Part shown: piece after piece, positions 2 through 33,495 of the stretch
Numbering within the stretch: the first letter of the stretch is position 1
Layout of the letters: the number at the start of each line of letters is the position of its first letter
Assembly: GCF_004324755.1 (NCBI RefSeq)
Contig: NZ_SDMQ01000020.1
Span: 1-35,438 of the forward strand
Reading direction: 5' to 3'
Length of the DNA: 35,438 bases
Source: Propioniciclava sinopodophylli
Lineage (GTDB): Bacteria; Actinomycetota; Actinomycetes; Propionibacteriales; Propionibacteriaceae
Translations under genes and position numbers: made by a program
The notes under the pieces: model-generated
What the model saw: only the letters and a program-made list of their open reading frames with translations
The model's database searches: none
Told to the model about the DNA's origin: nothing

Positions 2-259
2 CAACCAAGGACCCCCAGTGGAGAAGCCGGACAGACCGGCAGGACCACCACGCCCACACCCGAAACGCCGTCAACAACGACGCGAACCATCCCCAAGAAT
101 CACAGTCGGTGGATCAGGGTTCAGTCATCGGGCTGGGCCCACACTGGGGGCAACATTGCGATTATGGGCCGAGGCCCGTACTGGAGCTCCGTTCCGAGAG
201 AGGGATTCCCGAAAGACATGGCCTCGGACGAAGATCTCTACCGCAGTGAGGCGCCATGA
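2..259 (+). CDS. C-terminal end of an unknown gene entering from the left edge
   Basis: This frame is open from the first bases and ends at TGA 257-259, giving about 85 residues without a start in view. It begins with a Thr/Pro-rich stretch that looks like a linker and ends in a more ordered part with several Trp, Gly and Tyr residues (for example GGNIAIMGRGPYWSS). The alternative frame over the same bases, which runs into the methyltransferase, is Arg/Pro-rich and looks like an off-frame translation, so I prefer this one. Its stop overlaps the ATG of the next small frame (ATGA at 256-259), as in coupled genes. I do not recognise the family. The assignment rests on composition and overlap only. 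Confidence 0.4.
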   Translation, partial: QPRTPSGEAGQTGRTTTPTPETPSTTTRTIPKNHSRWIRVQSSGWAHTGGNIAIMGRGPYWSSVPREGFPKDMASDEDLYRSEAP

Positions 260-417
260 CTCGGGCTCAGATCTTTGCCGAAGAGCGACGAGGTGGTTGG
301 AGGTCCATCCGCGACTTCGAGGTCCGCGGCCGCGCAGAGACCGTCGTCGAACGTGCACCATCCCCAGGCGTCACGTCTCACGCACCGGTGATCGGGGTCC
401 CATGCTGGTGCGACTAG
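256..417 (+). CDS. Possible 53-aa gene coupled to FkbM methyltransferase
   Basis: ATG 256 overlaps the previous stop as ATGA, and the frame ends at TAG 415-417, overlapping the methyltransferase start at 402 in another frame. The product is charged in its first 35 residues (MTRAQIFAEERRGG at the N-terminus) and ends with a short Cys-containing tail (VPCWCD). No domain is recognised. Chained overlaps on both sides are the main support. It is short enough to be chance, or the N-terminal remnant of a frameshifted larger protein. Confidence 0.33.
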   Translation: MTRAQIFAEERRGGWRSIRDFEVRGRAETVVERAPSPGVTSHAPVIGVPCWCD

Positions 418-1205
418 GCGACGCAGAGTTCGAAGTGACGTCGACCAACCTGGAGTTCTGGCGACGAGTGAGTCTGGGCGACTGGGAGCCGGACTCATTC
501 AACGTCGTGCGGCAGTTTCTTGCTGGGTCAGGTGGCCCCTTCATCGATGTTGGGGCGTGGATTGGACCGCTGACCTTGTACGCGGCTGCGCTCGGCAGCT
601 CGGTGGTCGCGTACGAGCCCGACCCTGTCGCACGCACCGAACTCTTGGCGAACGTGGCCCTCAACCCTTCACTGGCCGATCGCATCACCGTCCGCCCGCA
701 AGCGGTGGGGACGGGACGTTCTGGGCGGCGCCTGGGAAACATCACGTCGACCTTGGGCGGCGACTCGATGTCGAGTCTGCTGTTCGCAGACGCGAGCGTG
801 GGCTGGGTGGTGGAAGAGATCCCACTCACCGACGTCCTCGCCGGGGCACCACACCCCGCCCTGGTCAAAATTGATATCGAGGGAGCAGAGGTGGAGGTGC
901 TGTCAGCGGCGAGTGAGTCCCTGGAGGCGTTGCCACCTCTCCTGCTGTCCGTCCACCCGCGATTCTGGGAACCGGACCCCGATCCTAGGCTGCGTCGTCT
1001 GGTGCAGTTGTTGGCCCTCTATCCGTCGGTGACGACCCCAGACGGCCAGCCGTTCGTCCTTACGGACCTGTTTGACGAACCATGGCGGAGCGGCTTGCTT
1101 GAGCTTGTCGTCGCATCGGGTCCACCATGGACCGCATGCCCGGATCGATCTGGTCCACCCCAAGGCGGAGGCAGCCCGCCACGGCTCGGTGGCCGGGATG
1201 GATAG
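402..1205 (+). CDS. FkbM-family SAM-dependent methyltransferase
   Basis: The 267-aa product carries the class I methyltransferase core of the FkbM family: a glycine motif FIDVGAWIGPLTLYAA at about residues 45-60, the acidic end of strand beta2 (VAYEPDP), and the family-typical VKIDIEGAEVEVL block near residues 155-167. FkbM enzymes O-methylate sugars or polyketide/peptide hydroxyls; the substrate here cannot be told. The open frame extends back to position 18, but that part is Arg/Pro-rich and unlike coding sequence, and ATG 402 lies just before the first conserved strand, so I start there. The ribosome site is weak (GGGG four bases upstream), consistent with coupling to the overlapping upstream frame. 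The last 30 or so residues are Pro/Gly-rich and may be disordered. Confidence 0.8.
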   Translation: MLVRLGDAEFEVTSTNLEFWRRVSLGDWEPDSFNVVRQFLAGSGGPFIDVGAWIGPLTLYAAALGSSVVAYEPDPVARTELLANVALNPSLADRITVRPQAVGTGRSGRRLGNITSTLGGDSMSSLLFADASVGWVVEEIPLTDVLAGAPHPALVKIDIEGAEVEVLSAASESLEALPPLLLSVHPRFWEPDPDPRLRRLVQLLALYPSVTTPDGQPFVLTDLFDEPWRSGLLELVVASGPPWTACPDRSGPPQGGGSPPRLGGRDG

Positions 1206-1386
1206 GCGCACCTGCTCCAACAGGGACCCCGCCCGGGTTCGGGAATTGCTGCGTGGCCGTCGAGGTCTGCGGGCAGTCGGGACCCGAGTCCACAGAGTCG
1301 CTTAACTTAACTGGGGGGGTGCCCGGAGTCATGGCCCTGGGCGCGCACCGCTCATCGAGGCCAGATCGTACGTCGCAGCGCGGCCC
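1206..1386. other. Convergent intergenic spacer
   Basis: About 180 bases separate the convergent methyltransferase and SARP genes. It contains a short imperfect inverted repeat (TCGGGACCCGA near 1280), an AT-richer patch TTAACTTAAC near 1303-1312 and a run of seven G. The hairpin has no T-run behind it, so I do not call a terminator. No gene or other feature is seen. Confidence 0.5.
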
Positions 1387-2145
1387 TCACCTCACGGCAC
1401 CGGCGGGTGCGGGGATGACGACAAAGGGGGCGAGGAGCTCGCGTATCGCGGCGGAGGGGCGTCCGTTCAGCTCGCGGCGGAGCAACTCGGCGTACGAGCG
1501 GTACTGGTGGATGGCCTCGGCGATGTTCCCCTCCTGCAGGTGGATCTTCACGAGCAGGCGGTGCGCGCTCTCGCGGAGGGGCTCGGTGCTGATCGCAGCG
1601 AGTGCGACTTGGAGCGCGTCATACCAGCGCCCCTGCTGGATGAGCAGTTCGCCGATTCTGTCCATGGCGTGCAGGCGTACCTGGCGGAAGCGTTCCCGTT
1701 CGACGATGACCCAGTCCTCGTACCAACCGGCCAGGATGTCGTTTCCGACCTCGATCAACTCCTGGGCCACGCGGAACACCGTCTCCGCATCGGGTTCCGA
1801 GCGCAGGACGCCCTCGGCACGGTCGATCACCCGGCGCAGGTCGACCTGGACGCAGGGGTTGAGCCACAGGTGGGTGTTGGAGACGCAGACCAGCTCCATG
1901 GGTTGGAGCCGCCACAGTGCCGAGCGCAGGCTTGAACTGGCGTGGCGGTCGTCGGCGTCGTACCACAGTGTCCCGCTGACGTAGGTGCGTCTGACGGGCC
2001 GGGGCTGGAAAGCGAGGAAGCAGACCAGACGCTGGGAGGCGGGGGCGATGGGCACGGGCTCGCCGTCGCATCGAACCTCGAAGTCCATGATGAGGTTCAG
2101 CTGCAAGGCCGGACCGGACGGATTCAGGACTGATGGAGTGGTCAC
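1387..2145 (-). CDS. SARP-type transcriptional activator (OmpR-like wHTH + BTAD)
   Basis: The 252-aa product matches a small SARP (AfsR/DnrI/RedD class): an N-terminal winged-helix DNA-binding domain (residues about 15-100, including FLAFQPRPVRRTYVSGTLW and SSSLRSALWRLQ) followed by a bacterial transcriptional activator domain of TPR-like helices (about 105-245; WYEDWVIVERERFRQVRLHAMD, LRESAHRLLVKIHLQEGN, AIHQYRSYAELLRREL). SARPs bind direct repeats on an 11-bp period and activate clustered operons. GTG 2145 is preceded by AAGGAG four bases upstream. In the given sequence this frame is continuous with the glycosyltransferase, but the ribosome site, normal SARP length and the G9 tract argue for a separate gene that starts here. 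It is the probable pathway regulator of the locus, given the phased repeats at 4449-4563 and 35187-35231. Confidence 0.85.
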   Translation of the reverse strand: MTTPSVLNPSGPALQLNLIMDFEVRCDGEPVPIAPASQRLVCFLAFQPRPVRRTYVSGTLWYDADDRHASSSLRSALWRLQPMELVCVSNTHLWLNPCVQVDLRRVIDRAEGVLRSEPDAETVFRVAQELIEVGNDILAGWYEDWVIVERERFRQVRLHAMDRIGELLIQQGRWYDALQVALAAISTEPLRESAHRLLVKIHLQEGNIAEAIHQYRSYAELLRRELNGRPSAAIRELLAPFVVIPAPAGAVR

Positions 2146-4425
2146 GGTACTCCTTGGGGGGGGGTTCACCGTCGATCGCTCGGCAACGCGTCGGACGGCA
2201 TGTGACGGATGGACAGCGGCGAGGACCCCGGCGCGCGGCAGGAGGTCGTGATACAGCGCGTAATCGTCCTCGAGGAGCCGGCGCACCTCGGTGAGGTCGA
2301 CTGGCGCCCAGTATGGCCCCTGGGTGTCCTTGCGGACAGTGCTTCTGCTGTGGAGCAGAGCCACCACAAGGTCGCAGGAGCGCAGGTCGTCCAGCTCGCG
2401 GGCGCCCGACTGCCAGACGAAGCGGGTGTCCTCCCCGACGCCGACGGCCGGGAACGGGTGCCTGCGCCACAGGCTCACCGCGTAGCACAGGCTGGTCCCG
2501 GCCAGCCACGGCCGGGCTCCGGTGGGCCAGGTGTACCGCCACGCCCGGGAGAGTTCCGGGTCACAGAACAGCAGGCGCGACGTGCCCGACAGTTCCGCCC
2601 TGCCTGACGCCAGGCCGTGCATCTGGGTGGACAGCCGGGTGGGCGACTGCCAGTCGTCGTCGTCCCAGTGGGCGATGAAGTCGCCGGTGGCCAGCTCACA
2701 GGCGAGGTTTCGTTTGGTGCCGAGCACGACGGGCTTGTCGAGCCGCTGGTAGCGGACACCGGGGACGCCGGCGACCAGGTCGATGATCGGGTCGTCCCCG
2801 TCGTCCAGCACGACCAACTCCTTGTCGGGGTAGTCCTGGTGCCGGAACCAGGCGATCGCCAGCGCCGCGAGATCGCGGCGATCCCGGGTGGGCATGATGC
2901 AGCTCACCCTTCCCGCCACGGCCCCGGACGTCTGCGTCCCGTCGAGACTCGCGTAGAACGCCAGGTCGTCGCCGGGCAGGTCGGGCACGGCCACCCGCGC
3001 CCACCCATGGCGGTCGACCGCGTGCCCGGCCTGCAGCGACCAGGTGTTGCCCGCGTGGCGCACGTACACGTAGTGCTCCCGGCCGGGCACGCGGATCAGC
3101 CGGGCGCCAGACCGGACGCAGGCGTCGAGGAAGTCCGCCTCCTCGGCGAGCGAACGGTCCGGGAACTGGTGGTGCTCCCACCACCGCCGGGCGAAGGCGA
3201 CCGTCCCGCCGTAGACCCCGCGTCGCAGCAGCCTGGGCTCCAGCCCCGGGGATGGCCGCCAGCACCGCCATCCGGCCGGTTCGAACCAGTCCACCCCCTC
3301 GAGCCCGGTGATGTCCGCGGTCCCGGCCAGCAGCGGGCCGAGTTGGGTGCTCACCCGGCGCGGACCGTGCCAGTCGTCGTCGTCGAACAACACGATGAAC
3401 TGGCCGCGGGCCGCCGCGCAGCCGAGGTTGCGCAGCGCGCCGATGCTGCGGCGTCCGGTGCCGGCGGGCGGGTGGACCAGCCGCACGCGGGGGTTGACGG
3501 GCAGGAGTGTCGCCAGGTGTGGGGGCCCGTCCTCGACGACCACCAGTTCGGCCTCCGCGTAGTCCTGGCGCAGGAAGTACTCGACCGCACGCAGGGCGAA
3601 CTGCGGGCGTCCGCGGGTCGGCATGACGCAACTCACCAGCGGCTGTCGCGCCGCGACCGGGGTGCGGAGAGCCGGCTGCGTGGACGCCGGCGTGACGGGC
3701 GCGTCGACGCGGAGCCTGATCAGCTCCCGGGGGGCGAAGTCGGTGCACGCGTCGCCGAGGCAGTGCTGCCGGTAGTCGACGCGGTCTCCGGCGAGGCGCT
3801 GCCCACAGAACCGCTCTTGGTAGAGCCGCCGGGCGGGCTCCAGCTGTGCGCCGTCGTCGACCGGCGCGGGCCGCCACACGAAGGCGCCCCCGACCCAGAC
3901 CCCGGGGAACCCGGCCCGGGCGGCCCGGATGTTGTAGTCCATCTCCCAGCACGGCCCCTCCCCGTACGCCGGGTCGGCGCCCCCTAGACCGTCCACCACC
4001 TCGCGCCGCACCAGGTAGCAGAAGTCGCCCAGCGAGTGGAGCGGGGCCAGGGTGCGCGCAGCGGTCCCGAACCGGCGGGCCAGTGCGGCGGACGCGGTAC
4101 GCACCCCGCGCAGGTCCCCGGTGGCGTCGACGCAGCCCTGCTCGTTCCACGCCCGGTTCGTGCTGGGCCCGGCGAGGCCTGCGCCGGTGCGGGCCAGCGC
4201 TGTCGTGAGCCTCGTGAGCCAGTCGGGGCCGACCAGTGCTCCGCCCTGGAGCAGGACGACGTCGGACTCCGACCGCCCGACCAGTTCGTTGAAGCCCAGT
4301 GCCCCCGCGGCGGACAACTCGACCACTTCGTACGGGCAACTCCCGGTGTGGCGGGCCAGGAAGTCGTGGCTGAGCCGCAGCGCGTCCGGGTGCGCCGGCG
4401 TCAGGCCCACCGCTGTCCTCGGCAT
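2146..4425 (-). CDS. Tandem three-domain GT2 glycosyltransferase
   Basis: About 760 residues with three GT-A/GT2-like modules. Module 1 (residues about 1-200) is degenerate at its start but keeps the acceptor-side block CWEMDYNIRAARAGFPGVWV. Module 2 (about 265-480) opens with VSCVMPTRGRP and has VVVEDG and FDDDDW (W near 352). Module 3 (about 508-740) opens with VSCIMPTRDRR and has VVLDDG and HWDDDDW (W near 592). The DxD acids of modules 2 and 3 are intact, so both could bind nucleotide-sugar and metal. No membrane segment or signal peptide is seen, so it is probably cytoplasmic. ATG 4425 lacks a clear ribosome site; GTG 4410 has GAGGA five bases upstream and may be the real start. In the given sequence there is no stop before the SARP; removing one G from 2156-2164 would end this gene in a TGA at 2144-2142, overlapping the SARP GTG as GTGA. 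The acceptor is unknown; glycosylation of the particle or envelope is only a guess. Confidence 0.8.
2156..2164. repeat. G9 homopolymer at the GT/SARP junction
   Basis: Nine consecutive G on the plus strand (C9 in the coding strand) lie immediately upstream of the SARP ribosome site AAGGAG. With nine bases the glycosyltransferase reads into the SARP; with eight it stops in TGA overlapping the SARP GTG. It is either a sequencing indel, a true fusion, or a slippage/phase-variation site. Confidence 0.8.
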
Positions 4426-4448
4426 GCGTCGAACTGTGGGGTCTGCCC

Positions 4449-4513
4449 ATCACCGGGGGGTGTGCACTGCGTCACGGCGGCGTCACCGCCTCGTGACCGC
4501 CGCGTGACCGCAC
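4449..4513. promoter_or_regulatory. Probable SARP operator: phased 11-bp direct repeats (array A1)
   Basis: TSAC words start at 4472, 4483, 4494 and 4505, exactly 11 bp apart, within units CGTCACGGCGG, CGTCACCGCCT, CGTGACCGCCG and CGTGACCGCAC. A further TCAC at 4450 sits two periods upstream. A heptamer-like core repeated with an 11-bp period is the binding mode known for SARP regulators, and a SARP is encoded next door. The array lies in the divergent region between the GT/SARP genes and the giant DUF4157 gene, so it could serve either or both. No convincing -10 box was identified. Confidence 0.65.
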
Positions 4514-4530
4514 GCAGGGCCCGGCCCCCT

Positions 4531-4563
4531 CGTGACGCCGGGGTGACGTCGACGTGATCAGGT
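4531..4563. promoter_or_regulatory. Second phased repeat block upstream of the cargo gene (array A2)
   Basis: Three more units, CGTGACGCCGG, GGTGACGTCGA and CGTGATCAGGT, place TGAC/TGAT at 4533, 4544 and 4555, again exactly 11 bp apart. The block is 28 bp out from the last unit of A1, so it is a separate phase, and it ends 12 bp before the cargo GTG at 4576. It could be a SARP site dedicated to the cargo gene, or the last unit may be fortuitous. Confidence 0.5.
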
Positions 4564-4575
4564 CGGGGAGTGACG

Positions 4576-7500
4576 GTGGAGGCTGTCCCCTCGACGAGTG
4601 GAGCCGGCGGTGACCACGGCTTGGCACGGAGCCTGTCCGTGGACCGGCGCGAGGGAGGCCGCGCGTCCGTGTCGAGGGCGCTTGAGCGGATGGGGCGGGC
4701 CTTCGGGGAGGACTTCTCCGATGTCGGCGTCGAACTCGGCGCGGATGCCGAGGCCGGAAGCCACGGCGCCTTCGCCTTCACGGAGCGAGGGCGGATCGCC
4801 TTCTCCAGCGGCCGCTTCGCCCCGGGGACGCCGACCGGTGACCGTGTGCTCGCCCACGAGCTGGCGCATGTCGTCCAGGATCGGCTGGGGACCGCCTCGG
4901 ATCCGGCAATCGGGGTCGAGGCGCTCGAAGCCGAGGCGGCACGGGCGGCCACGGCCGTCCTGGAGGGCCAGTCACCCCGGTTCGACGAGCACTCCGCCCC
5001 GCCCCATAACGCGGGCACACCCCGGGTCCTGCGCAACGGGGACGAGCACGAGACCCTCGTGCCCGTCGTGTTCGGCACCCGGGACGAGGCTCGCACGGTC
5101 ATCTTCGCGCGGCTGCCCGAACCGTCCCGGGCGGCACTCGGGTGGGTCACGGGCGCGACGATCGAACTGGAGGTCGAGGGCCGGAGGATCGCGACAGCGA
5201 GGCTGACCGACGAGGGCGCAGGCGTCCCCGAGGGTGTCGTCTCCGACGGGGACGGCGGCGCACGATGGTGGCACCACGAGGCGGGGAGCGCACTCACCGG
5301 TGCGTGGACGCCGCGGGGGATCGCGGTGGAGGAGGGGTCGACGCGTTACCTCGCCATCCTCGATGCCCGGGACACGCAGGCCTTCCGGTCGGCCCTGGGG
5401 ACCCGCACCCTGATCCTGGTCCGGCTCAGGGGCGGACAAGGCGGAACCGAGGGAGGCGAGGGTGCGGAAGCAGCAGCGGGTGAGACCGATCCGCTCCCGG
5501 AGTGGGCCACCACGCGCTTCGCCCGCCTCCAGGAGCGGCTCCGGGGCGAGCAGATGCGGATCGCGCGCGTGGCCCAGCAGACCGTCGGCGACACCACCGC
5601 GGAGACCCTGCACCGGCTGTACCGCCTTGAGGGGCTCCCGCAGCGCCTCGCGCTCGGCCGGGCCGGGGAGGCGCCCGCGGTCCAGGTCACGGTCGTCACC
5701 GGGCCCGCCTCCGCCCCCGGCGGGGCGTCCCCACAGACCAGCGCCAGCATCCCGCTCGTGGAGGCGGACTCCCCGGCGAACTCCTGGGAACGGATCCTCA
5801 CCCTGGCCCGCGGTCTCTACCTGGGTCGCCGGGACGCGGCCACCGCCCCTCCCCAAGCCGTCCCCCCGATGGGAATCCCGGGCTCGGGCGAACCCGACCC
5901 GGAGGCGGTACCCCCCAACGCGCCGGCCTACCCGGCAACGATCCGCTACTACGGCCCACCCACGGGGGTCGTTCGTGCCTCCCACACCTTCGCCATGGAG
6001 CTGGACTACTCCGAACTCGGGGAGTTCGCGGTGTTCGGTCACTTCGCCCTCAGGTGGTACGCCTGGGACATCTACCGGATCCGGGACGTGGCCGGGGCCG
6101 CCACCGAGGAGGGCGGACGGAGGGTCCGGCGCCAGGAGGGCGCGGTGGCCGTCCTGGAGCGCGGTTTCGGCGACATCGGCGAGGACCTCGCCTCCTCGTC
6201 ATTGTCCGAGCTCGTCAGCCAGCGCGACCTGATCGCGATCGACACGGCTGTCCGGGCCATCGGGACCCTGGTCAAGAGTTACGTGACCCTACTGAGCCAG
6301 CCGTCGGACGAACGGACCATCCAGTTCGACCGGGAGGGGACGTACGTCATCGTCTGCCGCAGTTCCCAGGCGCCGGTCCACCGGACCGAGCGGATCCGGA
6401 ACCCGGTCGTGCGCGCTCCCAGCGTCGCCCTGCACGTGCTGCAGGTGCGGACCGCGCAACGGATCGCCGCCGACCTGACCGCGGCCACCGAGGTGGAGGC
6501 GGTGGACGCCGAGATCGCGCGGCTCGAGGCGGAAGCCCGCACGGCACCGCAGGATCGGCTGCCGGCCCTCCAGGAGGAGATCGGACGGCTGCGGCAGCAG
6601 CGCGCGACGGCCACGGCGGCCGACCAGAGCGACCTGCCCACGCACATCGGCGCGACAGGGACCAACCTGCGCCAGCAGATCGCACTCCTGGAAAAGCTCA
6701 TCCGGGGCGACGACCCCCTGGACCCGGCCGTCCGGCTGCTGAGGGTGGAGCTCACCCTCTCCGGCACGAGCGCGGAGCGCGCTCTCGCGAACGCGCGCGC
6801 CGCGCTGGATTCGCTGCTGCTGCAGGAGCGCGCGCTGGCCGAGCTGACGGACCTGAAGGGTACGACGTACCGGCCTCACATGGCGTTCGTCCCCGACGCG
6901 GACGGGCGGACGCTGCCGCTCGTCATGGCGCTGGCCGAACACGTCGACAGCACACCGGAACGGCCCCGCTGGGTGCTCGTCGACCTGTCGACCCCGGGGC
7001 ACCGCGACCGCTACGAGGGAACCTCCAACACGGCCGGCGCCACCGGCACGGGGAGAGCGATCCGGCAGGCCTTCGGCAGGTTCGCGGGTGCCACGCCGTA
7101 CGGTCGGGGGTGGATCCACCTACGGCTTCCGGCGGCCCTGACCGACGTGATCGGGACCGCGACGGTGGAGACCAGCCTGCGGGCGCGCCCGGACTCCACC
7201 GGACGGTTCCTCCAGCGGCTCGAGAGCCTGGCCACCGCGGCGGCATTGGCGGGACTCGTGGTCACGGGGCCAGCCGGCGTCGCGCTGGGGGTCGTGGGCG
7301 GAATCGCGGGCGGCGTCGTCGCCGGGCACAGGCTCCACCGCCGTCACGCCGGGGGCTATCTGGAACCCGACCTGCAGACGGCCATGGATGTCGCCGCCAT
7401 CGTCGGCGCCGCCGCGGGCGCGGCCGGTGCCGCTGCCTCGACCGTTCCCCGGGGATCGCGCTTCATCCGGGCGGCCGGCATGACGATCCGGGGCGTGGAG

Positions 7501-10056
7501 TACTACGGCTACGTCCAACTGGCCGGCTCGGCTTTCGCGATCCCCGTCCAGTACTTGAACCAGATGCGGGCGATCGCGAACGACCCGAACCTGTCCGAGG
7601 GGGAACGCCGGGCGCGGCGGGCCGAGGCCTTCCTGCAGGTGCTCAACACCTCGCTGCAGCTCGCGGTCACCGCCGCCCAGATGGCCGGGCATGCCCGGTC
7701 CGGTCGCGCGGACGACCCCACGGCACCACGGCCGGTCGAGGAAGGGATCCCCCCACCGCCACGCGAGGAGGGGACGCCGCGTCCACGCGAGGAGGGGACG
7801 CCGGCGCGTCCGGTCGAGGAAGGGGCGCCGGGGCGTCCGGTCGAGGAAGGCGTCCCTGTGCGCCCGGGGGACGGGGCTGCGGTCGAGGACAGCGTGCGCA
7901 CGTTCGGTGACGCGCGCACGGGCGCGGTCACGATCGTGCCGGGCAGCGGTACACGCAGCGCCTACGTGGCCGGCCGCCTGTACGAGACGACCGCCCTACG
8001 CCATCCGGAGGCCGAGGTGGGCCTCTTCGTCAACCCGACGACCAACGAACGGGTGATCGCGATCGGGGACGGGCAGTCAGTCCGGCTCGCCCACGACGAC
8101 CCGAACTGGACGCGGCTCCTCCCGGAGGAGTCCCGGGGAGGCGGGCGATGGGTGCTGGAGCAACACAGCCACCCGATCGACCCCGTGACCGGCGTGACAA
8201 GGCGGGCCGACTACTGGCCCAGCGGAGCGGACGGTGACTTCCTCGGGGTGGTGATCGAGGCGCTGACGCCACCCCCGCACAAGGCGACCGGCGGGATCCT
8301 CGTGCACACCGGTGGAGGGCGCACCCTGAGGGGCACCTACAGCTACGACCCTGCGGCGGCGCGGCCGTACAGCGTCGAGATCCCGGTGCCGGGACGTCCC
8401 GCGCCCTATCGCCGCTCGTACCGCACCCTGGAGGACTTCTACGCCGACCGCGCCGAGCACACCGGGGTGCCGGCCCCGAGCGAGGTACCGCCGAGCTTCC
8501 CGGGCGCGACCCGGGCCCGTCCTCGTGGGGCGGCCGAGCCGGCTCCAGGCGGCTCGGACGCCGCCCCGCCACCCGCTGCGCGGGCCCCGAGCAGCGAGCC
8601 ACCCACGCCCGGCACCCGCACCGAGCGATTGCGTGCCCTCGAGGTCGCCGCGGCCGAAGCGCAGGCCAGCGGGGACTCCGTGAGGTCGGCGGCGGCGAAC
8701 CGCCGCCTGATCGAGGCCCAGAACGAGGTCAGGGCCGGGCTGGAGGACACCGGTCTCCCGGCAGGCACCCTCGCCCGACTGCTGGACACCGGGATCTCCC
8801 CGGACCAGATCAGGACCCTGCGGGGCTGGCTGGGGGAGGGCGCCGCCAGCTACCTCGGCGGTCGCCTCAGCCCGGCCGAACGCGAGGCCCTGCCCCGCGT
8901 GGCCGACGCGCTGGCGCCCCACGTGAGCGACCCGGCCTTCGTTGACGGGCTCGCCCGGCTGGGTGCCCCGCCGAGGGGGCGGGGTCCGCGGACGATCGTG
9001 CCGCTGCTGGACGGGGTGCCCACCACCCGGATGAGGCGTTTCGTCGAGCTGTTGTCGGATTCCGGGCTGGGTCTCACCACGCCCTCCGAGTCCATGCTGT
9101 CGTTGCTCAAGGACCCCGCGGTCCTGGACTTGAGCCACAGCTACCCCGAGTTCGTGGCGTCCATGGTCCGGGGCGGTGCGGCTGCGAGGCGCCGCCACGA
9201 GGTCCTCCGCAACGTCGCACAACGGTTCGCCACGGACCAGGCGGCTGCGGGCGACTACGTGCGGGCGCTCGACGATGCGCCCGACATCAGGGCGATGGAG
9301 GCGATCGTCGGGCTGGAGTCACCTCCCCGCCGGGTGCCGATTCGTCCTTCGGCGACGTTGCGTGCGTATCCCGAGCGGTGGGACTGGGGGGGCCACGTCG
9401 ACGCGGCACACAGGTTCGTCCGCGACCACCCGGAGTTCGCCCCCGGGGTGCCGAGGACACCCCCGGACGGCCCCGCTCTCACCGCCCTCGTCGAGCGACT
9501 CGCCACCCTGTACCAGACCCGGGCGCTCGCCCGGCCCGGCCTCGAAGGACTCACACACGCCGAACGCGTCCACCTCCTGAACGAGTTCATCGCTGCCGGA
9601 CGCGAGGCCGGTCTTGTCGGCGACAACGCCGGAGTGCTGAACAACCTCAGCGGAGCGCTCGCGGAGGGCCTGTTCACCCCCTCCGGTGCGTTGACGCAGC
9701 GCCGTCTGCCGCACCCGGAGGGTGGCCACACGATCATCGACTACGAGCTGCCGGCAGCCGCCTCCGTGATCCCCGGCCGGCGCAACTTCGTGGAACTGAA
9801 GTCGAACGAGGTGCCGGACGCATCCCTCGCCCGCGCCCACGTCCGGGACGCGATCGCGGACGCGGCGGCCGTCGCGCAGGCGGGCGGCGTCCACCTCATC
9901 GAGTACGTTCGCACCCCCGACCCGGGGACCCGGGCACGGATGCTCGCGGAGCTGTTCGGCCCCACCTCTCCGTTGCAGGCGGTCCGGTTCGGGGACGGGC
10001 CGTGGATCCTGCGGACCGACCGGCCCGCCTGGCTGGCGAGCGAGCCTCCGCCCTGA
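4576..10056 (+). CDS. Giant DUF4157 protein; candidate eCIS cargo/toxin
   Basis: 1826 aa. The start is set at GTG 4576 because GGGGAG lies five bases upstream; the earlier in-frame GTG 4570 overlaps that site. Order of parts: (i) DUF4157 (about residues 35-105) with the zinc-protease-like motif HELAH at 94-98 and the typical GRIAFSSGRFAPG strand; (ii) a long unassigned region, with a Glu/Ala/Arg coiled coil at about 635-705; (iii) a hydrophobic Gly/Ala-rich section at about 885-1040 that could insert in membranes; (iv) a repetitive EEG-x-P linker at 1054-1098; (v) a JAMM/MPN-like block with HSHP (H1197, H1199) and SGADGDF (S1216, D1219); (vi) a helical segment; (vii) a C-terminal domain with IIDYEL (D1722) then VELKS (E1740, K1742), a D...ExK arrangement like PD-(D/E)XK nucleases. 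DUF4157 proteins are strongly associated with eCIS loci, and the gene stops 7 bases from the convergent particle operon. I infer an injected effector; the nuclease and peptidase activities are predictions from motifs only. Confidence 0.8.
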   Translation: MEAVPSTSGAGGDHGLARSLSVDRREGGRASVSRALERMGRAFGEDFSDVGVELGADAEAGSHGAFAFTERGRIAFSSGRFAPGTPTGDRVLAHELAHVVQDRLGTASDPAIGVEALEAEAARAATAVLEGQSPRFDEHSAPPHNAGTPRVLRNGDEHETLVPVVFGTRDEARTVIFARLPEPSRAALGWVTGATIELEVEGRRIATARLTDEGAGVPEGVVSDGDGGARWWHHEAGSALTGAWTPRGIAVEEGSTRYLAILDARDTQAFRSALGTRTLILVRLRGGQGGTEGGEGAEAAAGETDPLPEWATTRFARLQERLRGEQMRIARVAQQTVGDTTAETLHRLYRLEGLPQRLALGRAGEAPAVQVTVVTGPASAPGGASPQTSASIPLVEADSPANSWERILTLARGLYLGRRDAATAPPQAVPPMGIPGSGEPDPEAVPPNAPAYPATIRYYGPPTGVVRASHTFAMELDYSELGEFAVFGHFALRWYAWDIYRIRDVAGAATEEGGRRVRRQEGAVAVLERGFGDIGEDLASSSLSELVSQRDLIAIDTAVRAIGTLVKSYVTLLSQPSDERTIQFDREGTYVIVCRSSQAPVHRTERIRNPVVRAPSVALHVLQVRTAQRIAADLTAATEVEAVDAEIARLEAEARTAPQDRLPALQEEIGRLRQQRATATAADQSDLPTHIGATGTNLRQQIALLEKLIRGDDPLDPAVRLLRVELTLSGTSAERALANARAALDSLLLQERALAELTDLKGTTYRPHMAFVPDADGRTLPLVMALAEHVDSTPERPRWVLVDLSTPGHRDRYEGTSNTAGATGTGRAIRQAFGRFAGATPYGRGWIHLRLPAALTDVIGTATVETSLRARPDSTGRFLQRLESLATAAALAGLVVTGPAGVALGVVGGIAGGVVAGHRLHRRHAGGYLEPDLQTAMDVAAIVGAAAGAAGAAASTVPRGSRFIRAAGMTIRGVEYYGYVQLAGSAFAIPVQYLNQMRAIANDPNLSEGERRARRAEAFLQVLNTSLQLAVTAAQMAGHARSGRADDPTAPRPVEEGIPPPPREEGTPRPREEGTPARPVEEGAPGRPVEEGVPVRPGDGAAVEDSVRTFGDARTGAVTIVPGSGTRSAYVAGRLYETTALRHPEAEVGLFVNPTTNERVIAIGDGQSVRLAHDDPNWTRLLPEESRGGGRWVLEQHSHPIDPVTGVTRRADYWPSGADGDFLGVVIEALTPPPHKATGGILVHTGGGRTLRGTYSYDPAAARPYSVEIPVPGRPAPYRRSYRTLEDFYADRAEHTGVPAPSEVPPSFPGATRARPRGAAEPAPGGSDAAPPPAARAPSSEPPTPGTRTERLRALEVAAAEAQASGDSVRSAAANRRLIEAQNEVRAGLEDTGLPAGTLARLLDTGISPDQIRTLRGWLGEGAASYLGGRLSPAEREALPRVADALAPHVSDPAFVDGLARLGAPPRGRGPRTIVPLLDGVPTTRMRRFVELLSDSGLGLTTPSESMLSLLKDPAVLDLSHSYPEFVASMVRGGAAARRRHEVLRNVAQRFATDQAAAGDYVRALDDAPDIRAMEAIVGLESPPRRVPIRPSATLRAYPERWDWGGHVDAAHRFVRDHPEFAPGVPRTPPDGPALTALVERLATLYQTRALARPGLEGLTHAERVHLLNEFIAAGREAGLVGDNAGVLNNLSGALAEGLFTPSGALTQRRLPHPEGGHTIIDYELPAAASVIPGRRNFVELKSNEVPDASLARAHVRDAIADAAAVAQAGGVHLIEYVRTPDPGTRARMLAELFGPTSPLQAVRFGDGPWILRTDRPAWLASEPPP
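7735..7869 (+). repeat. Tandem EEG-P linker repeats inside the cargo gene
   Basis: Imperfect tandem copies of about 27-30 bases encode units such as VEEGIPPPPR, EEGTPRPR, EEGTPARPV, EEGAPGRPV and EEGVPVRPG. The stretch separates the hydrophobic section from the JAMM-like domain and is probably a flexible hinge. Such a repeat could change copy number between strains. Confidence 0.75.
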
Positions 10057-11365: not shown

Positions 11366-13366
11366 TCACTCCCCCAGTGGGTAGTGCTCGCCGGCCCGCC
11401 GGTACTCCCGGCGCAGCGCCGCCCTGAGGTGGTCGTCGTCGGGTTCGGTGTCGTGGTCCAGGGCCAGCAGGACAGCGTGGAGAGCGGCGTTGCGTATCGC
11501 GCCGCCGGTCAGGGAGCACCGGCGGGCCACCTCGGTCAACAACGGCTCCGAGATCCTGTGCCCGGGCGGCAGGTGGCCCGCCCAGATCAGCCAGCGCTGC
11601 TCGGCGGTGGGCGGGACGAACTCGACCGTCACGTCGAGGCGACGCAGGAACGCCTGGTCGATCCGCGAGGCGGCGTTGCTGGTGATGAGGACGATGCCGG
11701 CGAACGCCTCCAGGCGCTGCAACAGGTAGTTGGTCTCGAGGTTCGCATACCGGTCGTTGGCGTCGCCGACATCGGTGCGCCGGGCCATCAGTGAGTCCCC
11801 CTCGTCGAGCAGGAGGACCACGCCGAGTTCCTCGGCGGCCGACAGCACCCGCTCGAGGTTCTTCTCGGTCTCCCCGATGTACTTGTTCACGACCCCCGCG
11901 AGGCTGACCCGGTAGGCGTCCAGGCCGAGGCGACCGGCGAGGTGCCGCGCGGCGAGGGTCTTCCCGGTGCCGCTTGGCCCGCTGAAGAGCGCCCGGACGC
12001 CGCGGTCGCCGCTCGCGCTCGCCTCGGCGAGCCGCTCGCGGTGGCGGCAGTGCAACAGGAGGGTCTCGAGTTCGTGCTCCGCGGCGTCGGTGAGCACGGG
12101 ATCGATTCCGCCGGCCGGGGGGAGCCGGACGGCCAGCGGCTCCAGTTGCCTGCGGCGCAGTTGTGACACGGCGTCCCGGACCGCGTCCAGCCGGATCGGC
12201 GGGCGTTCCGTGGCGGCGGCGTCCAGGAGTCCGGCCGCCGCGACCACGTTGCCGGGGGTCACCAGGAAGCTCTCGCTGACCTTGGCCACCTCGTCGCCCG
12301 TCACCCGGCCCAGCCCTGCCCTGCGCCAGAGCTCGTACCGCCCGTCTGCGGGACAGTGCCCCAGCTCGATCACGGCGGGGTTGTCCAGCAGGGGACCGGT
12401 GAGCCCTCCCGAGGGCCCGCAGCTGATCGCCACGACCCGGTGGACGCCCGGCAACGGGGCCAGGTCCAGCGTCTCGTCGGGCCGGGGGGAGCACCGGACC
12501 AGCGGCAGGACGGGGGCCAGCGCCGCGAGCGCCCCGAAGGTCCGCCAGACGTCCGGACCCGCCGTCGCGTGGTCGCAGACCAAGGTGTCCCAGCCGTTCC
12601 GCGCCGCGGCCGCCGCAGCCAGGGTCCGGCGGCCGGAGCGGGTGGCCCCGCGCAGCACGACGGCGGACAGGCGGTCGGCCAGGAGCAGGTCGGGCAGATC
12701 GGCGCGCACGGTGGCGAGGTCCTCGGCCACCCAGACGTCCTCCAGGTCGGGGGCCTCGTCGGCGTCCATGAGCACGAGCCCGTCGGGGAGCGACTCGGCG
12801 GACACGCGGCCGCTCTGGAGCACCTCCCACACCGGGACCGGGACCCGCACCACCCACTCGGCGCGGGGCTCGGTGACGTCGAGGACGTCGAGGATGCCCC
12901 TCCTGGCCAGCCGCAGGCAGCACAGCGCCAGCTCCCGCTCGTCGGTGTGCGAGGCGATCAGCCAGCGGAGCAGGCCGACGCAGGGTCGTCGCCCGGCGAC
13001 GGGGGCCTGCCAGGCGGCGAAGAGGGATCCGAAGCGCAGGTCATCCTCGACCAGACCGGCAGCGCTGACGACGAGGGCCTCCGTGGGGTCCAGCTCCGCC
13101 CAGCCGCTGGGGATGCCGAGCATGCCACTGAACTCGTCCAGTTGCCGCTGCCACCACAGCACCACGTCACCGGCGTTGCTGTCCTCGGGGACCCAGCGTC
13201 GCAGCTCGTCGTCGTAGGCGGCCAGCCATTCGCGGCCGGCGAAGCGATCCGGGTCGTCGTCCGGCCCGAGCCGCTGGAGGACCCGCGCGAGGACGACCGC
13301 GCGCACGAGTTCGGCGTGCTGGGCGGAGTAGTTGGTGGGGGTGGCGGTGTCGGTGATGGAGGTCAT
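11366..13366 (-). CDS. AAA+ ATPase of the eCIS (Afp15/Pvc15-like)
   Basis: 666 aa. The C-terminal half is a classic AAA+ module: Walker A GPSGTGKT (K469), pore-like segment VVNKYIGETEKNL, Walker B VVLLLDEGD, sensor-1 LITSNAAS, arginine-finger region FLRRLD and sensor-2 region LTGGAIRNAA. The N-terminal half (about 1-400) includes a degenerate second ATPase-like fold (VVLRGATRSGRRTLAAAAAA resembles a worn P-loop). Afp15-type ATPases act in assembly or stability of the particle and sit near the end of eCIS operons, as here. ATG 13366 has GAGGGAG upstream and follows the previous stop by one base. The cysteine pairs in the N-terminal half have no known role. Confidence 0.93.
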   Translation of the reverse strand: MTSITDTATPTNYSAQHAELVRAVVLARVLQRLGPDDDPDRFAGREWLAAYDDELRRWVPEDSNAGDVVLWWQRQLDEFSGMLGIPSGWAELDPTEALVVSAAGLVEDDLRFGSLFAAWQAPVAGRRPCVGLLRWLIASHTDERELALCCLRLARRGILDVLDVTEPRAEWVVRVPVPVWEVLQSGRVSAESLPDGLVLMDADEAPDLEDVWVAEDLATVRADLPDLLLADRLSAVVLRGATRSGRRTLAAAAAARNGWDTLVCDHATAGPDVWRTFGALAALAPVLPLVRCSPRPDETLDLAPLPGVHRVVAISCGPSGGLTGPLLDNPAVIELGHCPADGRYELWRRAGLGRVTGDEVAKVSESFLVTPGNVVAAAGLLDAAATERPPIRLDAVRDAVSQLRRRQLEPLAVRLPPAGGIDPVLTDAAEHELETLLLHCRHRERLAEASASGDRGVRALFSGPSGTGKTLAARHLAGRLGLDAYRVSLAGVVNKYIGETEKNLERVLSAAEELGVVLLLDEGDSLMARRTDVGDANDRYANLETNYLLQRLEAFAGIVLITSNAASRIDQAFLRRLDVTVEFVPPTAEQRWLIWAGHLPPGHRISEPLLTEVARRCSLTGGAIRNAALHAVLLALDHDTEPDDDHLRAALRREYRRAGEHYPLGE

Positions 13367-13367
13367 C

Positions 13368-14816
13368 TCACGCTCCCTCGAAGTGGAAGCACACCACACG
13401 GCCGAGGCGCGGCACCCAGCCGAGGTCCTGGTCCAGGCCCGCCAGCCGGACGCCGAGGTCGATCTCCTCGAGGCCCAGGACGACGTCGAGGTGCGTCCGC
13501 GTCACCGCGACGAGCCCGGGCCGCTCGAAGCTGGCCGGGGTGAGGCCGGCGTCGGCCAGGAAGCCGGCGGCAGCGTCCCACCAGGCCGGACGCCGCCGGA
13601 GGGCGGGCGCGGGCGCCTCGTCGAGGGCGGCCAGCAGGGCCCACAAGGGGTCGCGGCGACGGCGCCCGCGCCGGGGACGGTCCCGGAGAACCCATTGCGC
13701 GAACCGGCTGAGGTCGGCCGCGCCGGCGTCCTCGCCGCCGAACCTGAGCACCAGGTGGAGCAACTGGACCGCGGCGGCGTGGCGCGTGGCGACACCTTCG
13801 GGCCATCGTGACGACGGCGGGACAGGGGTCGCGCGGCGCCGGACGCCGGCGCGCCTGGCGGGTCCCCGTGGCGTCCGGGGCGGGGCGCCCACCGGCCGGG
13901 GCACCCGGTGCGTCCGGGGCGGTGACTGACCGCGCCGGGCGGGCGTGCCGATCCGCAGGCGGGCGGGACCGCCCCGCCGGGGAGGCGAACCGCCGTCGGG
14001 CGCCTGCGGAGTGGGGGATCGCCCGGGGCCACGTCCCTGGAGCCTTCCCCACGCGGGGGCGTCGAGCGGCGAGGGCCGGTCCGAGCGGACCAGAGCGACG
14101 GCGCCGCGGGCCCTCGTGGGATGGGGGCGCCGCGCAGGGCTGCGCGAGGTCGCCGGTGGTCGGGATTCCGGAGGTGCCGCCGTGGCGGGCGCGCGGCGGG
14201 TGGCCCGGCGGGGACGCCGGATCCCCGGCCTGCCCAGGGTCGCCGCGGCAGCGCGCAGGGCCGCCCCGGCCCTGTTGCCCCGTCCGCGAACCGTGACCGG
14301 GGGGTCCGGCTCCGGCGGCAGCACGGCGCCGAACGCCTGCCGCTCCGCGGGGTCGAGCAGCGCCAGCGCCCGGCCGGCCACCTCCGGTGTGGTGGCTGCC
14401 AGCTCCCGCAGCGCGGCCGGCAACCACGGGAGGTGCTCCCGCCAGGCCCCGTAGAGCGGCGTCCCGCCGTGGCCGCGCGCCCGGCGGAGCCAGGAGGTCC
14501 AGTACCAGCGGTCGCCGGCCACCCCGTCGGTCAGGTCGCGGGTGAACGCGGCCAGCGCCTCGACCAGGTCGTCGAAGAGCAGCGCCGGGGCGTCCGCGGC
14601 GGTCGGGTCGCCGGGTCGCACCGCCCGGCCCCGGAGGGAGAGCAGCGCGGCCCGGGCCGCGTCCGGGTCGGACGGATCCACCCGCAGCCGGCGCACGATC
14701 AGCACGCGCCGATCCCGCGCGAGGTCGAGCGCGGGATGCAGCAGGGTCTCGGCGGCGGCCCTCGCCACGCCGGGCGGCGCGGCGGCGCGGAGGCGCTCGA
14801 CCACGAGGTCGGTCAC
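13368..14816 (-). CDS. Unknown eCIS operon protein with Arg/Pro-rich linker
   Basis: 482 aa, starting at GTG 14816, which overlaps the previous stop as GTGA. It has a helical N-terminal part (1 to about 170), a long Arg/Pro/Ala-rich middle (about 180-340) that must be disordered if translated, and an ordered C-terminal part (about 345-482) ending in LEEIDLGVRLAGLDQDLGWVPRLGRVVCFHFEGA. All three minus frames through the middle look Arg/Pro-rich, so the composition reflects extreme GC and I see no clear frameshift. The C-terminal block looks like a conserved structural module of eCIS operons next to the ATPase, but I cannot name a family. By position it could correspond to the tape-measure slot, though it lacks the long continuous helix expected. 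Confidence 0.65.
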   Translation of the reverse strand: MTDLVVERLRAAAPPGVARAAAETLLHPALDLARDRRVLIVRRLRVDPSDPDAARAALLSLRGRAVRPGDPTAADAPALLFDDLVEALAAFTRDLTDGVAGDRWYWTSWLRRARGHGGTPLYGAWREHLPWLPAALRELAATTPEVAGRALALLDPAERQAFGAVLPPEPDPPVTVRGRGNRAGAALRAAAATLGRPGIRRPRRATRRAPATAAPPESRPPATSRSPARRPHPTRARGAVALVRSDRPSPLDAPAWGRLQGRGPGRSPTPQAPDGGSPPRRGGPARLRIGTPARRGQSPPRTHRVPRPVGAPPRTPRGPARRAGVRRRATPVPPSSRWPEGVATRHAAAVQLLHLVLRFGGEDAGAADLSRFAQWVLRDRPRRGRRRRDPLWALLAALDEAPAPALRRRPAWWDAAAGFLADAGLTPASFERPGLVAVTRTHLDVVLGLEEIDLGVRLAGLDQDLGWVPRLGRVVCFHFEGA

Positions 14817-16375
14817 TGCTTGCCCTCCTCCTCGGCCAGCGCGAGCAGCAGCTCCTCCATCAGCGGCCTGACCGGGTAGGTCGTCTCCCGGCCCAGGCCC
14901 CAACTGGCGACGAAGAACACGTACAGCTGGCTGCTCGGCACCGCACCCAGGTCGGGGAGGCCCGCGAGTCCGGCCAGGTCGTCGAGCTGGAGGAGGGTCC
15001 GGGGGAACACCTGCTGGTGCACGACGTAGTACACGAACGGACGCCCGAGCTGTTGCGGGGCACGGTCGCTGGTGTGCAACCGCTCCCGCACGGGGTTTCC
15101 CTCTTCGTCCTCGCCCCACGGCGCCACGGTGGGCACGGGACGCCGGTGCCAGGAGTCGCGGAGCATCGACTCGGCGACGTCCCAGTCGATGAGCCCACCG
15201 AAGCGGGCCAGTCGCCCGAAGAACTGCTCCGGCTTGAACCCCGACGGGATCCCACCCTGCAACGAGTCCAGGCGGAGGAGCAGCCGCTGGAGCAGCGGGA
15301 TCGCGACAAGCAGCGCGGCCGACCGGTCGCCGTCGAGGCGGAGCAGCCTCTCGTGGAGCGCAGCCAGTCCCTCGCCGAAGCTCGCGACGAGATCGCGGGC
15401 GACCGGCAGGAAGCCGGCCGGCGGGAGCAGGCCGAACAACTCGCTCGCCACCGCGTCGGACGCCCTGTTCTCCTTCCACAACTGGTTGGTCTGCTCCGTG
15501 AACTGGTGGAACCGGGCCTGCCCTGCCGCGATGCGCTCGTCACCGGTCAGCGTTCCGGTGTTCCCCCCGGCCGGTTCGGGGTGGACGATCCGCCGGCGCG
15601 CCGACCACAGGTCGAGGTCGGCGACGGACAGCCCGTCCCACCAGAACACCGCCAGCGGCAGGTCGTCGGTGGTCAGGTCGGTCAGGGTCGCGAGACCGGT
15701 CGGGACGTAGGGGTCGAACAGGCCTGCGGGCAGCCCGCCCCAACCGGGGGTGCCCAGGTCGGAGTCCGCCGCCGCGCACCACATCGCCAGCATGTTGCGG
15801 CGGTTCGCCGCCGTGACCTCCCGGCCGCCCACCTGCGTCAGTGCGGGAAGCGCGATCGCGCGGAACTCCAGTCCCGCGACCGTCCACTGGCCGGCGCACT
15901 TGCCGCCCTCGGTACGTTCGGCCGGCCGCACCGCGATGAGGTGGGCGCCCGCCTGCAACGGCGAGGCCGCGGTCGGCGACGGCGCCGAGCCGCAGCAGTG
16001 GAAACCTGTCAGGTCGGGCGCGGTGGGCGCCTCCAGCACGCCGAGCAGCGGGAGGGTGGTCTCGGCACCGAGGGTGACCGGCCGCCCGGACCTCGTGATG
16101 CCGGCGCCGGGGGCGACGGTGAGGGTGTTGCCGCCACTGCCTTGCGGCGCTCCGGCCGCAGCCCCGGCGCCGGTGGACACCCGCAACCCCGTGATGATGC
16201 CGTGCCCGGCGGCGCGACCCAGAAGCCGGTCACGCTCGCGCGCCGCATCCTGGTCGGCCGTCAGGTCGGTCGCGGTGAGGACGCGTCCGGTGCGGTAGCT
16301 CGGCCACCGCAGGCCGGCGGAGGTGCCCGGGCTCGTGGTCTCCGGGAAGTGGCTCTGCAGGTTGAACGCGGTCAC
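14813..16375 (-). CDS. eCIS baseplate/fibre-associated protein, unknown function
   Basis: 520 aa from GTG 16375, with GGGGG upstream overlapping the preceding stop. Near the N-terminus the pattern YRTGRVLTATDLTADQ... HGIITGLRVSTG, followed by a Gly-rich beta stretch (LTVAPGAGITRSGRPV), is shared in outline with the preceding 750-aa protein (GMVLGVDDVVTEQNYW... LGTVYGLQVTAG... VSPGLLVDQFGRD), so the two share a start module, probably beta-rich. Residues about 115-135 hold HCCG. The C-terminal half is helical and ends in an acidic helix (LMEELLLALAEEEGKQ). The role is unknown; a position after the gpI-like wedge suggests baseplate periphery or fibre attachment. Confidence 0.65.
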   Translation of the reverse strand: MTAFNLQSHFPETTSPGTSAGLRWPSYRTGRVLTATDLTADQDAARERDRLLGRAAGHGIITGLRVSTGAGAAAGAPQGSGGNTLTVAPGAGITRSGRPVTLGAETTLPLLGVLEAPTAPDLTGFHCCGSAPSPTAASPLQAGAHLIAVRPAERTEGGKCAGQWTVAGLEFRAIALPALTQVGGREVTAANRRNMLAMWCAAADSDLGTPGWGGLPAGLFDPYVPTGLATLTDLTTDDLPLAVFWWDGLSVADLDLWSARRRIVHPEPAGGNTGTLTGDERIAAGQARFHQFTEQTNQLWKENRASDAVASELFGLLPPAGFLPVARDLVASFGEGLAALHERLLRLDGDRSAALLVAIPLLQRLLLRLDSLQGGIPSGFKPEQFFGRLARFGGLIDWDVAESMLRDSWHRRPVPTVAPWGEDEEGNPVRERLHTSDRAPQQLGRPFVYYVVHQQVFPRTLLQLDDLAGLAGLPDLGAVPSSQLYVFFVASWGLGRETTYPVRPLMEELLLALAEEEGKQ

Positions 16376-16379
16376 CGGG

Positions 16380-18632: not shown

Positions 18633-18681
18633 CGCTGGTCCTCTTCCTTGGAGTGGCGAATGCGTGGCGTCTCGGGGCGGG

Positions 18682-21093: not shown

Positions 21094-21103
21094 GGTGGCC
21101 TCC

Positions 21104-23437: not shown

Positions 23438-23447
23438 GGGGGCCTCC

Positions 23448-23852
23448 TCAGGTGTCCCGGCTCAGGGTCATCGACACACGCTCCGCCACACCGGTGGCGA
23501 CGAGGGTGTAGCTGACGGTGATGTCCACGGCCCGCACGTCGGCCGGGCTGACCGTGGCGGTGACGTCGTCGAGCCGGATGCGCGGTTCCCAGCGGGCGAG
23601 GGCGACCTGGATGTCCTCGACGATCAGCCGCAGGGTGGCAACTGTGTTCGGTTCGAAGAGGTACCGGTCGACCCCGCACCCGAAGCCGGGCCGCTGGACC
23701 CGCTCCCCCGGCCGGGTGCGCAGGATCGTGGCGAGGCACTCCCGGACGTTCAGCTCCCCGGTCGACCAGGCGACCGAGCCGTCGGGGCCGACGCGGGGTG
23801 GAAACGACATCCCGGCGCCGTAGAGCAGCGCCTCGCGGCTGGTGGGGATCAT
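23448..23852 (-). CDS. gp25-like baseplate wedge protein (Afp9-like)
   Basis: 134 aa, ATG 23852 overlapping the previous stop as ATGA. It carries the GPW/gp25 pattern: an early Gly-rich start (SFPPRVGPDGSVAWSTG), the ILRTRPGERVQRPGFGCGVDRYLFEPN block with the conserved Arg and Gly residues, then IVEDIQVALARWEPRIRL. It is known in the family to bridge wedge to sheath and start sheath polymerisation. Length is normal. Confidence is high. Confidence 0.94.
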   Translation of the reverse strand: MIPTSREALLYGAGMSFPPRVGPDGSVAWSTGELNVRECLATILRTRPGERVQRPGFGCGVDRYLFEPNTVATLRLIVEDIQVALARWEPRIRLDDVTATVSPADVRAVDITVSYTLVATGVAERVSMTLSRDT

Positions 23853-25522: not shown

Positions 25523-25524
25523 GG

Positions 25525-26247
25525 TCACCACACGTTCCCGGCGCCGGGGGTGTAGCTGCTGCCGATGACGGTGGAGGCGATGATCGCGTTGCACTGGATG
25601 GCCCCCGAGTAGGTCCACATGCCCGAGTTCACGGTGGCGGAGCCGCAGTCGACGGTGATCGTGGGCGCGGAGATCGACAGCTTGCTGGCCGCCGTGAGCG
25701 TGACCCCGCCCGGGGCCAGTTCGAGGGAGTTGCCGCTGCTGTCGGACGCCGTGACCGTGTTGCCGGCGTCGGAGAGCTCGACCTGCTGCCCGCCCGGTGT
25801 CCGCAGGGTGAGCGTGACCGCGCCCCGGGTGTCGTCGAGCGTGATCTTGATGCCGCTGCGCGAGGTGAGCGAGCGGATGTTGTTGTCCGAGCCCACGCTT
25901 TCCGGGGCGGAGTCCCGGCCGTTCCACAGCGATCCGACCACGTACGCGTCGCGTGGGTTGCCGGCACCGAAGCTGACCAGCACCTCGTCGCCCACCTCGG
26001 GGACGAACCAGCTGCCCCGTCCATCGCCCGCGTTCATCGTGGCGAGCCGCGCCCAGGGGGAGAACTCGGCCGCGTCCGGGTCGGGCGCCCACGGCAACCG
26101 GACGCGCACGCGCCCCTGGCCGTGGGGGTCGGAGTTGTCGGTCACGAGGGCGGGGTAGACGCCGTAGTAGTGCCGCCCCGGGTCGCTGACGAGCGCCTGC
26201 AGGCTGAGGTCGGTCGCATTCGGGTCCAGGACGGTGTGGCCGCTCAT
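25525..26247 (-). CDS. gpV/gp5-like spike protein
   Basis: 240 aa; ATG 26247 overlaps the hub stop as ATGA. The N-terminal OB-fold carries YPALVTDNSDPHGQGRVRVRLPWA and SWFVPEVGDEVLVSFGAGNPRDAYVVGSLWNG, typical of VgrG/gpV spikes. The C-terminal 130 residues alternate short beta strands (VTLTLRTPGG, SLELAPGGVTLTAASKLSI, TVDCGSATVNSG), a trimeric beta-helix needle. It ends in a short unrelated tail, and no PAAR domain is attached. In Afp8/Pvc8 this part is fused to the hub; here it is a separate gene. Confidence 0.93.
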   Translation of the reverse strand: MSGHTVLDPNATDLSLQALVSDPGRHYYGVYPALVTDNSDPHGQGRVRVRLPWAPDPDAAEFSPWARLATMNAGDGRGSWFVPEVGDEVLVSFGAGNPRDAYVVGSLWNGRDSAPESVGSDNNIRSLTSRSGIKITLDDTRGAVTLTLRTPGGQQVELSDAGNTVTASDSSGNSLELAPGGVTLTAASKLSISAPTITVDCGSATVNSGMWTYSGAIQCNAIIASTVIGSSYTPGAGNVW

Positions 26248-27320: not shown

Positions 27321-27323
27321 GGC

Positions 27324-27491
27324 TCAGTCGGCTCGCAGTCGGTGGGACAGGCGCGCCCGCTCGTCGAGCCAGACGTCGAGCCGGGAGGCCAGGTCCGTCT
27401 CCGGCCCCGTGGCGGCGCGCGGTGCCGCGGGGGTGGACGCGGGCGCCGGCGGTGGTTGGACGACCTCCACCTCGTTGATCTGGATGGGCAT
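27324..27491 (-). CDS. Small eCIS protein (Afp6/Pvc6-like), 55 aa
   Basis: A 55-aa frame between the LysM protein and the hub. ATG 27491 has AAGGAG seven bases upstream; an earlier GTG at 27497 is too close to that site. The product starts MPIQINEVEVVQPPP, continues through a Pro/Ala linker and ends with an amphipathic helix (DLASRLDVWLDERARLSHRLRAD). Afp/PVC clusters have a comparably tiny gene next to the LysM and hub genes, so I assign it by position, size and the short beta-strand plus helix layout. Function in assembly is unknown. Confidence 0.8.
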   Translation of the reverse strand: MPIQINEVEVVQPPPAPASTPAAPRAATGPETDLASRLDVWLDERARLSHRLRAD

Positions 27492-27493
27492 GG

Positions 27494-31070: not shown

Positions 31071-31074
31071 GGTG

Positions 31075-31530: not shown

Positions 31531-31558
31531 CGTCGTCTCCTTGTCGTGTGGTCGCCGG

Positions 31559-33466: not shown

Positions 33467-33495
33467 GACTGGTCTCCGCTCGCTGGATGGTCGGT

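Follow-up and report, generated by a model that had tools for sequence, protein, structure and literature searches.

Described systems and the locus

GeneTack 'translational coupling' pairs (PMC3711429) resemble the gene pair described here in the form that it takes in Kineosphaera limosa, where the stop codon of the first gene overlaps the start codon of the second and a Shine-Dalgarno sequence lies just upstream. The pair differs from them in that, on the DNA analysed, the overlap is bypassed by a run of C that is one base longer, and in that no overlap was seen in a more distant relative (genome G404, from another family of the order). Slipped-strand phase-variable homopolymer genes share with this locus a run, C9, placed where a change of one base shifts the frame; unlike in such genes, a single length was seen here, the relatives do not share the tract, and the start of the downstream gene is retained. 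Regulators with a BTAD domain near loci for extracellular contractile injection systems (eCIS), which resemble phage tails, have already been described, BTAD being listed as an eCIS shell domain and a likely regulator (PMC8213781), and the regulator reported here likewise adjoins a locus for sheath, tube, baseplate, ATPase and eCIS_core proteins. Unlike those regulators, it is paired with an upstream GT2 glycosyltransferase and is divergent from the cargo gene; a term search of the main text of that paper did not return 'glycosyltransferase'. The SARP domain of AfsR (PDB 8hvr, 8jke and 8k60) is matched by the regulator in sequence, but the regulator consists of 252 residues only.

The window, meaning the whole stretch of DNA analysed, is a complete contig of 35,438 nucleotides (NZ_SDMQ01000020.1) of Propioniciclava sinopodophylli (GCF_004324755.1). 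Sheath, tube, baseplate, AAA ATPase and eCIS_core proteins were found to be encoded on it (Pfam matches over the cut-off, with one Baseplate_J match below), which together identify an eCIS locus. Among the titles and beginnings of abstracts listed in searches of an open-access library, no mention was found of a GT2-SARP pair in eCIS loci.

Homopolymer tract and continuous reading frame

Inspection of the sequence identified the following features at the junction of the pair:

1387..2145, minus strand: 252-codon gene of the SARP-type regulator, which has a BTAD domain, starting at GTG 2145
2142..2145, minus strand: GTGA, shared by the regulator start GTG and the TGA at which the glycosyltransferase stops when arranged as in K. 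limosa
2146..4425, minus strand: glycosyltransferase part with two GT2 domains, start at ATG 4425 or GTG 4410
2150..2155, minus strand: Shine-Dalgarno AAGGAG of the regulator, retained within the joined frame (GAGGAG in K. limosa)
2156..2164, minus strand: C9 homopolymer (G9 on the plus strand), where K. limosa differs by one base

The preliminary description had placed nine G directly before AAGGAG, TACC and GTG. The length of the run and the order of the elements were confirmed, with AAGGAG at 2155-2150, TACC at 2149-2146 and GTG at 2145-2143 following the run on the minus strand; however, the G9 at 2156-2164 belongs to the plus strand, and the coding strand reads C9. With nine bases, the ORF at 1387-4425 (minus strand) is open for 1012 codons and runs from a GT2 glycosyltransferase with two domains into a SARP/BTAD regulator, as had been proposed. 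Downstream of AAGGAG the first stop codons occur at 1389 in frame 0, at 2144 in frame +1 and at 1621 in frame +2. The +1 stop is the TGA at 2144-2142, which overlaps the GTG as GTGA, so that the predicted consequence of one base fewer, a glycosyltransferase stop overlapping the regulator start by four bases, was also borne out, and it is the arrangement of K. limosa. The two frames are thus continuous in the assembly through an uninterrupted stretch of C that is one base longer.

This four-base coupling had further been said to be used throughout the locus, which is an overstatement. Comparison by eye of NTGA sites with the gene layout gave four-base overlaps at junctions 14816, 23852, 26247, 28932 and 25528, the last being doubtful as an ATG at 25522 is the likelier start. 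Four, perhaps five, such overlaps are therefore real, while others are small gaps.

The two proteins

Pfam searches of the joined protein identified Glycos_transf_2 in two stretches of its first part (97.5 bits against a cut-off of 23.3) and BTAD in its last part (64.7 bits against a cut-off of 22.1; 66.9 bits in K. limosa). The glycosyltransferase was found to be conserved up to approximately residue 730, beyond which the tail is variable. Searches with phmmer aligned regulator residues 14-239 to the AfsR SARP domain (PDB 8hvr, E 1e-4) and residues 16-239 to PDB 8jke and 8k60 (E 0.002), although the top-scoring PDB matches were not AfsR but TPR parts of O-GlcNAc transferase, at residues 161-220. 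Pfam DNA-binding models gave no match at E 0.001 to the joined protein or to the K. limosa proteins. The GTG at 2145 is a sensible start of a complete regulator, given that the 252-residue protein aligns to the AfsR SARP domain. Matches to the regulator began at or before residue 16 of the GTG-started protein in 68 of the 79 loci with a match.

The Shine-Dalgarno duplex energies are nearly equal in the window (-8.0) and in K. limosa (-8.2), indicating that the base change at 2155 brought no clear gain. A scan of 1100-4700 found no promoter-like site, and the single terminator-like site that it gave lies within the glycosyltransferase gene, near chance level.

Comparison with Kineosphaera limosa

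The closest relative of this stretch was identified as K. limosa NBRC 100340 (locus L031), with 97.4% identity across window positions 120-4499. Of the 4380 aligned columns, 113 are mismatches, and the only gap falls exactly at the tract, which in K. limosa is interrupted and one base shorter. The K. limosa genes accordingly encode two proteins, with a 760-codon glycosyltransferase ending in a TGA that overlaps the regulator GTG (GTGA). What sets the tract apart is its position, as the sole gap against K. limosa in those 4380 columns.

Across window positions 120-3000 eleven differences from K. limosa were counted, three of them at the tract within 12 nt; the simulated probability of any such cluster is approximately 0.007, for a stretch that was picked afterwards. 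The two substitutions among them lie within 10 bases of the gap, in an otherwise near-identical stretch, and slippage alone is no explanation for them. From the alignment, a reasonable reading is that a substitution created an uninterrupted run which then gained a base, this polarity being the probable one. It could also be that the C5 of K. limosa is itself miscalled.

Further along, a 19.2-kb block (14653-33817) aligns to K. limosa with five gaps, of which four are multiples of three and one, at 25522, is a single base. That single-base difference also lies at a gene junction, where it reads as a spacer between a stop codon and an ATG. Positions 14653-23999 differ from K. limosa by 10 mismatches in 9347 aligned columns, while a 15-kb piece from another contig of the genome gave 39 short matches to K. 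limosa (the longest approximately 620 bases) at 66-94% identity. This disparity would be expected if the eCIS locus had recently been transferred between lineages that are far apart, or if the contig were foreign.

Other relatives and database searches

The preliminary description had asked whether homologues are two proteins or one fused, and the answer from K. limosa and G404 is two, with no fused protein. G404 carries a distant syntenic locus with a glycosyltransferase that is 52-54% identical and a regulator that is 53% identical, encoded by separate genes in different frames and without a C run. Its regulator probably starts approximately 76 nt past the stop codon of the glycosyltransferase; a further ATG in the regulator frame lies 7 nt past that stop. 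The claim of two GTGA-coupled genes joined by an extra base is thus supported by K. limosa and, as to the two genes but not as to the four-base overlap, by G404. In another genome, G041, a glycosyltransferase with 72% identity ends on its own, and no match to the regulator was found in the 16 kb fetched.

Among 76 loci (L002-L077), both proteins were matched at E 1e-8 in one, that of K. limosa. In a set of 82 loci, some of which are the same place twice, the regulator was matched in 79 and the glycosyltransferase as well in only three of these (L031, L156 and L192, the last two being one place). The pair is not joined at either place, and no joined protein was found among the loci of the two checks, so that to date the joined frame has been seen on this contig alone. 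Of the two other loci that bear the pair, only that of K. limosa shows the GTGA overlap, and it alone aligns at the tract itself. The survey drew on sampled or length-limited listings of the collections, with many loci carrying flanks of only 1.5 kb. In the Streptomyces fuscichromogenes locus (L048), a GT2 match was observed directly after an eCIS ATPase match, with no regulator match at E 1e-8.

DNA searches of the family (198 genomes) and the order (391 genomes) gave, among the matches listed, G041 and G404 as the only strong ones besides this genome. Within the genus of G404, a search that scored three candidates per genome gave matches at E <=1e-40 in 26 of 215 genomes, and among these G404 alone had a glycosyltransferase match. 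Viral contigs gave no match to the junction pattern and one distant glycosyltransferase at the protein level; plasmids gave one 68-base BTAD match only, and phages three weak glycosyltransferase matches only.

eCIS setting of the pair

Upstream of the glycosyltransferase, the following features were identified:

4411..4569, no strand assigned: stretch between glycosyltransferase and cargo gene, presumed promoter region, in which no sigma-70-like site was found
4570..10056, plus strand: neighbouring ORF of 1828 aa, divergent from the pair and encoding a putative cargo protein that has an eCIS_core domain at its N-terminus

At three loci the pair and an eCIS_core ORF are transcribed divergently, the ORF having 1828 residues here, 410 in K. 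limosa and 1938 in G404 (positions 4411-4569 of the window, near 5960-6000 of L031 and near 8391 of L156). Homology to K. limosa DNA ends at 4499, between the pair and the eCIS_core ORF, indicating that the neighbour differs while the pair is kept. Judging from the unequal ORFs of 1828 and 410 residues, it looks as if the cargo was exchanged while the glycosyltransferase-SARP pair stayed. Past 4499, patches of K. limosa homology were observed at 11450-12160, 12814-13064 and 13355-13850; the K. limosa contigs end near 13850 and 14653, with the interval between them unseen.

Homopolymer statistics and assembly

Dinucleotide shuffles of the window contained at least one G9 or C9 run in 94 of 100 cases (mean 3.45 per shuffle); a nine-base run is therefore expected and is by itself no sign of selection. 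In the genome (3.07 Mb) such runs are rare, with 17 G/C runs of at least 8 bases, of which fifteen are of 8, one is of 10 and this tract, the second longest, is of 9. Elsewhere in the genome, 8-base runs were found inside long ORFs whose GC3 is coding-like.

The contig opens with 119 bases that were found again no more than 62 bases from the ends of three other contigs (C43, C39 and C2). This sharing links the window contig to the genome and suggests that short reads were assembled. The repeat is perhaps the end of a mobile element; homology to K. limosa starts right after it, at 120. A contaminating contig, considered because the window makes up an entire contig that closely resembles K. limosa, is less likely in light of the shared repeat.

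Explanations for the continuous frame

Very probably, a private homopolymer difference of one base has made two ordinary genes continuous, and neither a selected fusion nor a switch is involved. The relatives compared keep two genes, which favours a slip or an assembly error over either design. The most likely cause is a recent slippage indel, with a somewhat smaller share of our judgement given to an assembly miscall. Under the latter, which taken by itself is possible but clearly not the favoured account, the strain would truly have two genes and the length of the run would have been miscalled. Homopolymers are a classic site of indel errors, the pair is separate at both other loci (K. limosa and G404), and frame transitions that occur as singletons are, in the view of the authors of GeneTack, likely to stem from indel mutation or sequencing error (PMC3711429). 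Against a miscall, short reads, apparently those used here to judge from the 119-base repeat, are usually good at nine bases, 8-base runs elsewhere sit in long coding-like frames, and the two substitutions at the tract would not be produced by a miscall of length.

The preliminary description had left the choice between an indel and a slippage switch; an indel, of the assembly or of the strain, is best supported, while the switch has gained no positive evidence. A contingency locus, in which a fast-slipping C run switches between a coupled two-protein and a joined one-protein state and so shifts the dose of the regulator, is improbable. Its bolder form, in which C9 toggles the eCIS regulator between a coupled, free form and one fused to the glycosyltransferase and keeps a clonal population mixed for deployment of the system, is a little more improbable. 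The genome carries NucS and gave no match to MutS_I, in a search that was positive in 11 of 14 control genomes, and repair by NucS leaves short indels uncorrected (PMC8228993), so that a long C run could drift. A nine-base run in such a genome, its rank as second-longest G/C run and its place just before an overlapping stop and start speak for a contingency locus. However, K. limosa has an interruption in the tract and G404 lacks the run, a single state was seen (in one assembly of the strain), and the regulator keeps its start and Shine-Dalgarno sequence in both states, so that any switch would be weak. Ribosomal slippage, in which a +1 shift on CCC-C would bring ribosomes to the TGA at 2144 and so yield both products from one DNA state, is very unlikely. 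CCC-C is shift-prone in Escherichia coli, with up to approximately 1% at the second codon (PMC4519876), and the +1 frame does stop at 2144, but the run is not conserved and efficiency away from the start codon is expected to be low, so that leakage at C9 should be small. Least probable of all is a selected fusion in which the glycosyltransferase tethers or controls the regulator: the 1012-codon open frame would suit it, but no joined protein occurs among the loci examined, a complete Shine-Dalgarno sequence and start persist at the junction, and the glycosyltransferase tail past approximately residue 730 is not conserved.

On the preferred reading of two ordinary genes, the GT2 glycosyltransferase and the downstream SARP/BTAD regulator would form a two-gene unit at the cargo end of the eCIS locus, with an ancestral state probably as in K. 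limosa. In that state, ribosomes that terminate at the TGA could reinitiate on the GTG that overlaps it, aided by AAGGAG. In the continuous state they would read on into the joined protein, while the same Shine-Dalgarno sequence and GTG may start the regulator internally; as both are intact, the regulator should still be made. The likely outcome would be an altered dose of regulator together with a C-terminal extension of the glycosyltransferase past its unconserved tail, the joined product of 1012 residues being a by-product or an altered glycosyltransferase.

Biological significance

The locus carries a caution, in that one homopolymer base creates an apparent glycosyltransferase-regulator fusion for which the relatives examined give no support. 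Should the length of the tract vary among cells of one population, slippage would be connected with the control of a contractile injection system, in a lineage where mismatch repair of the NucS type leaves short indels uncorrected. With an eCIS_core gene divergent to it at three loci, the GT2 and SARP pair offers a modest lead on possible control or modification of cargo.
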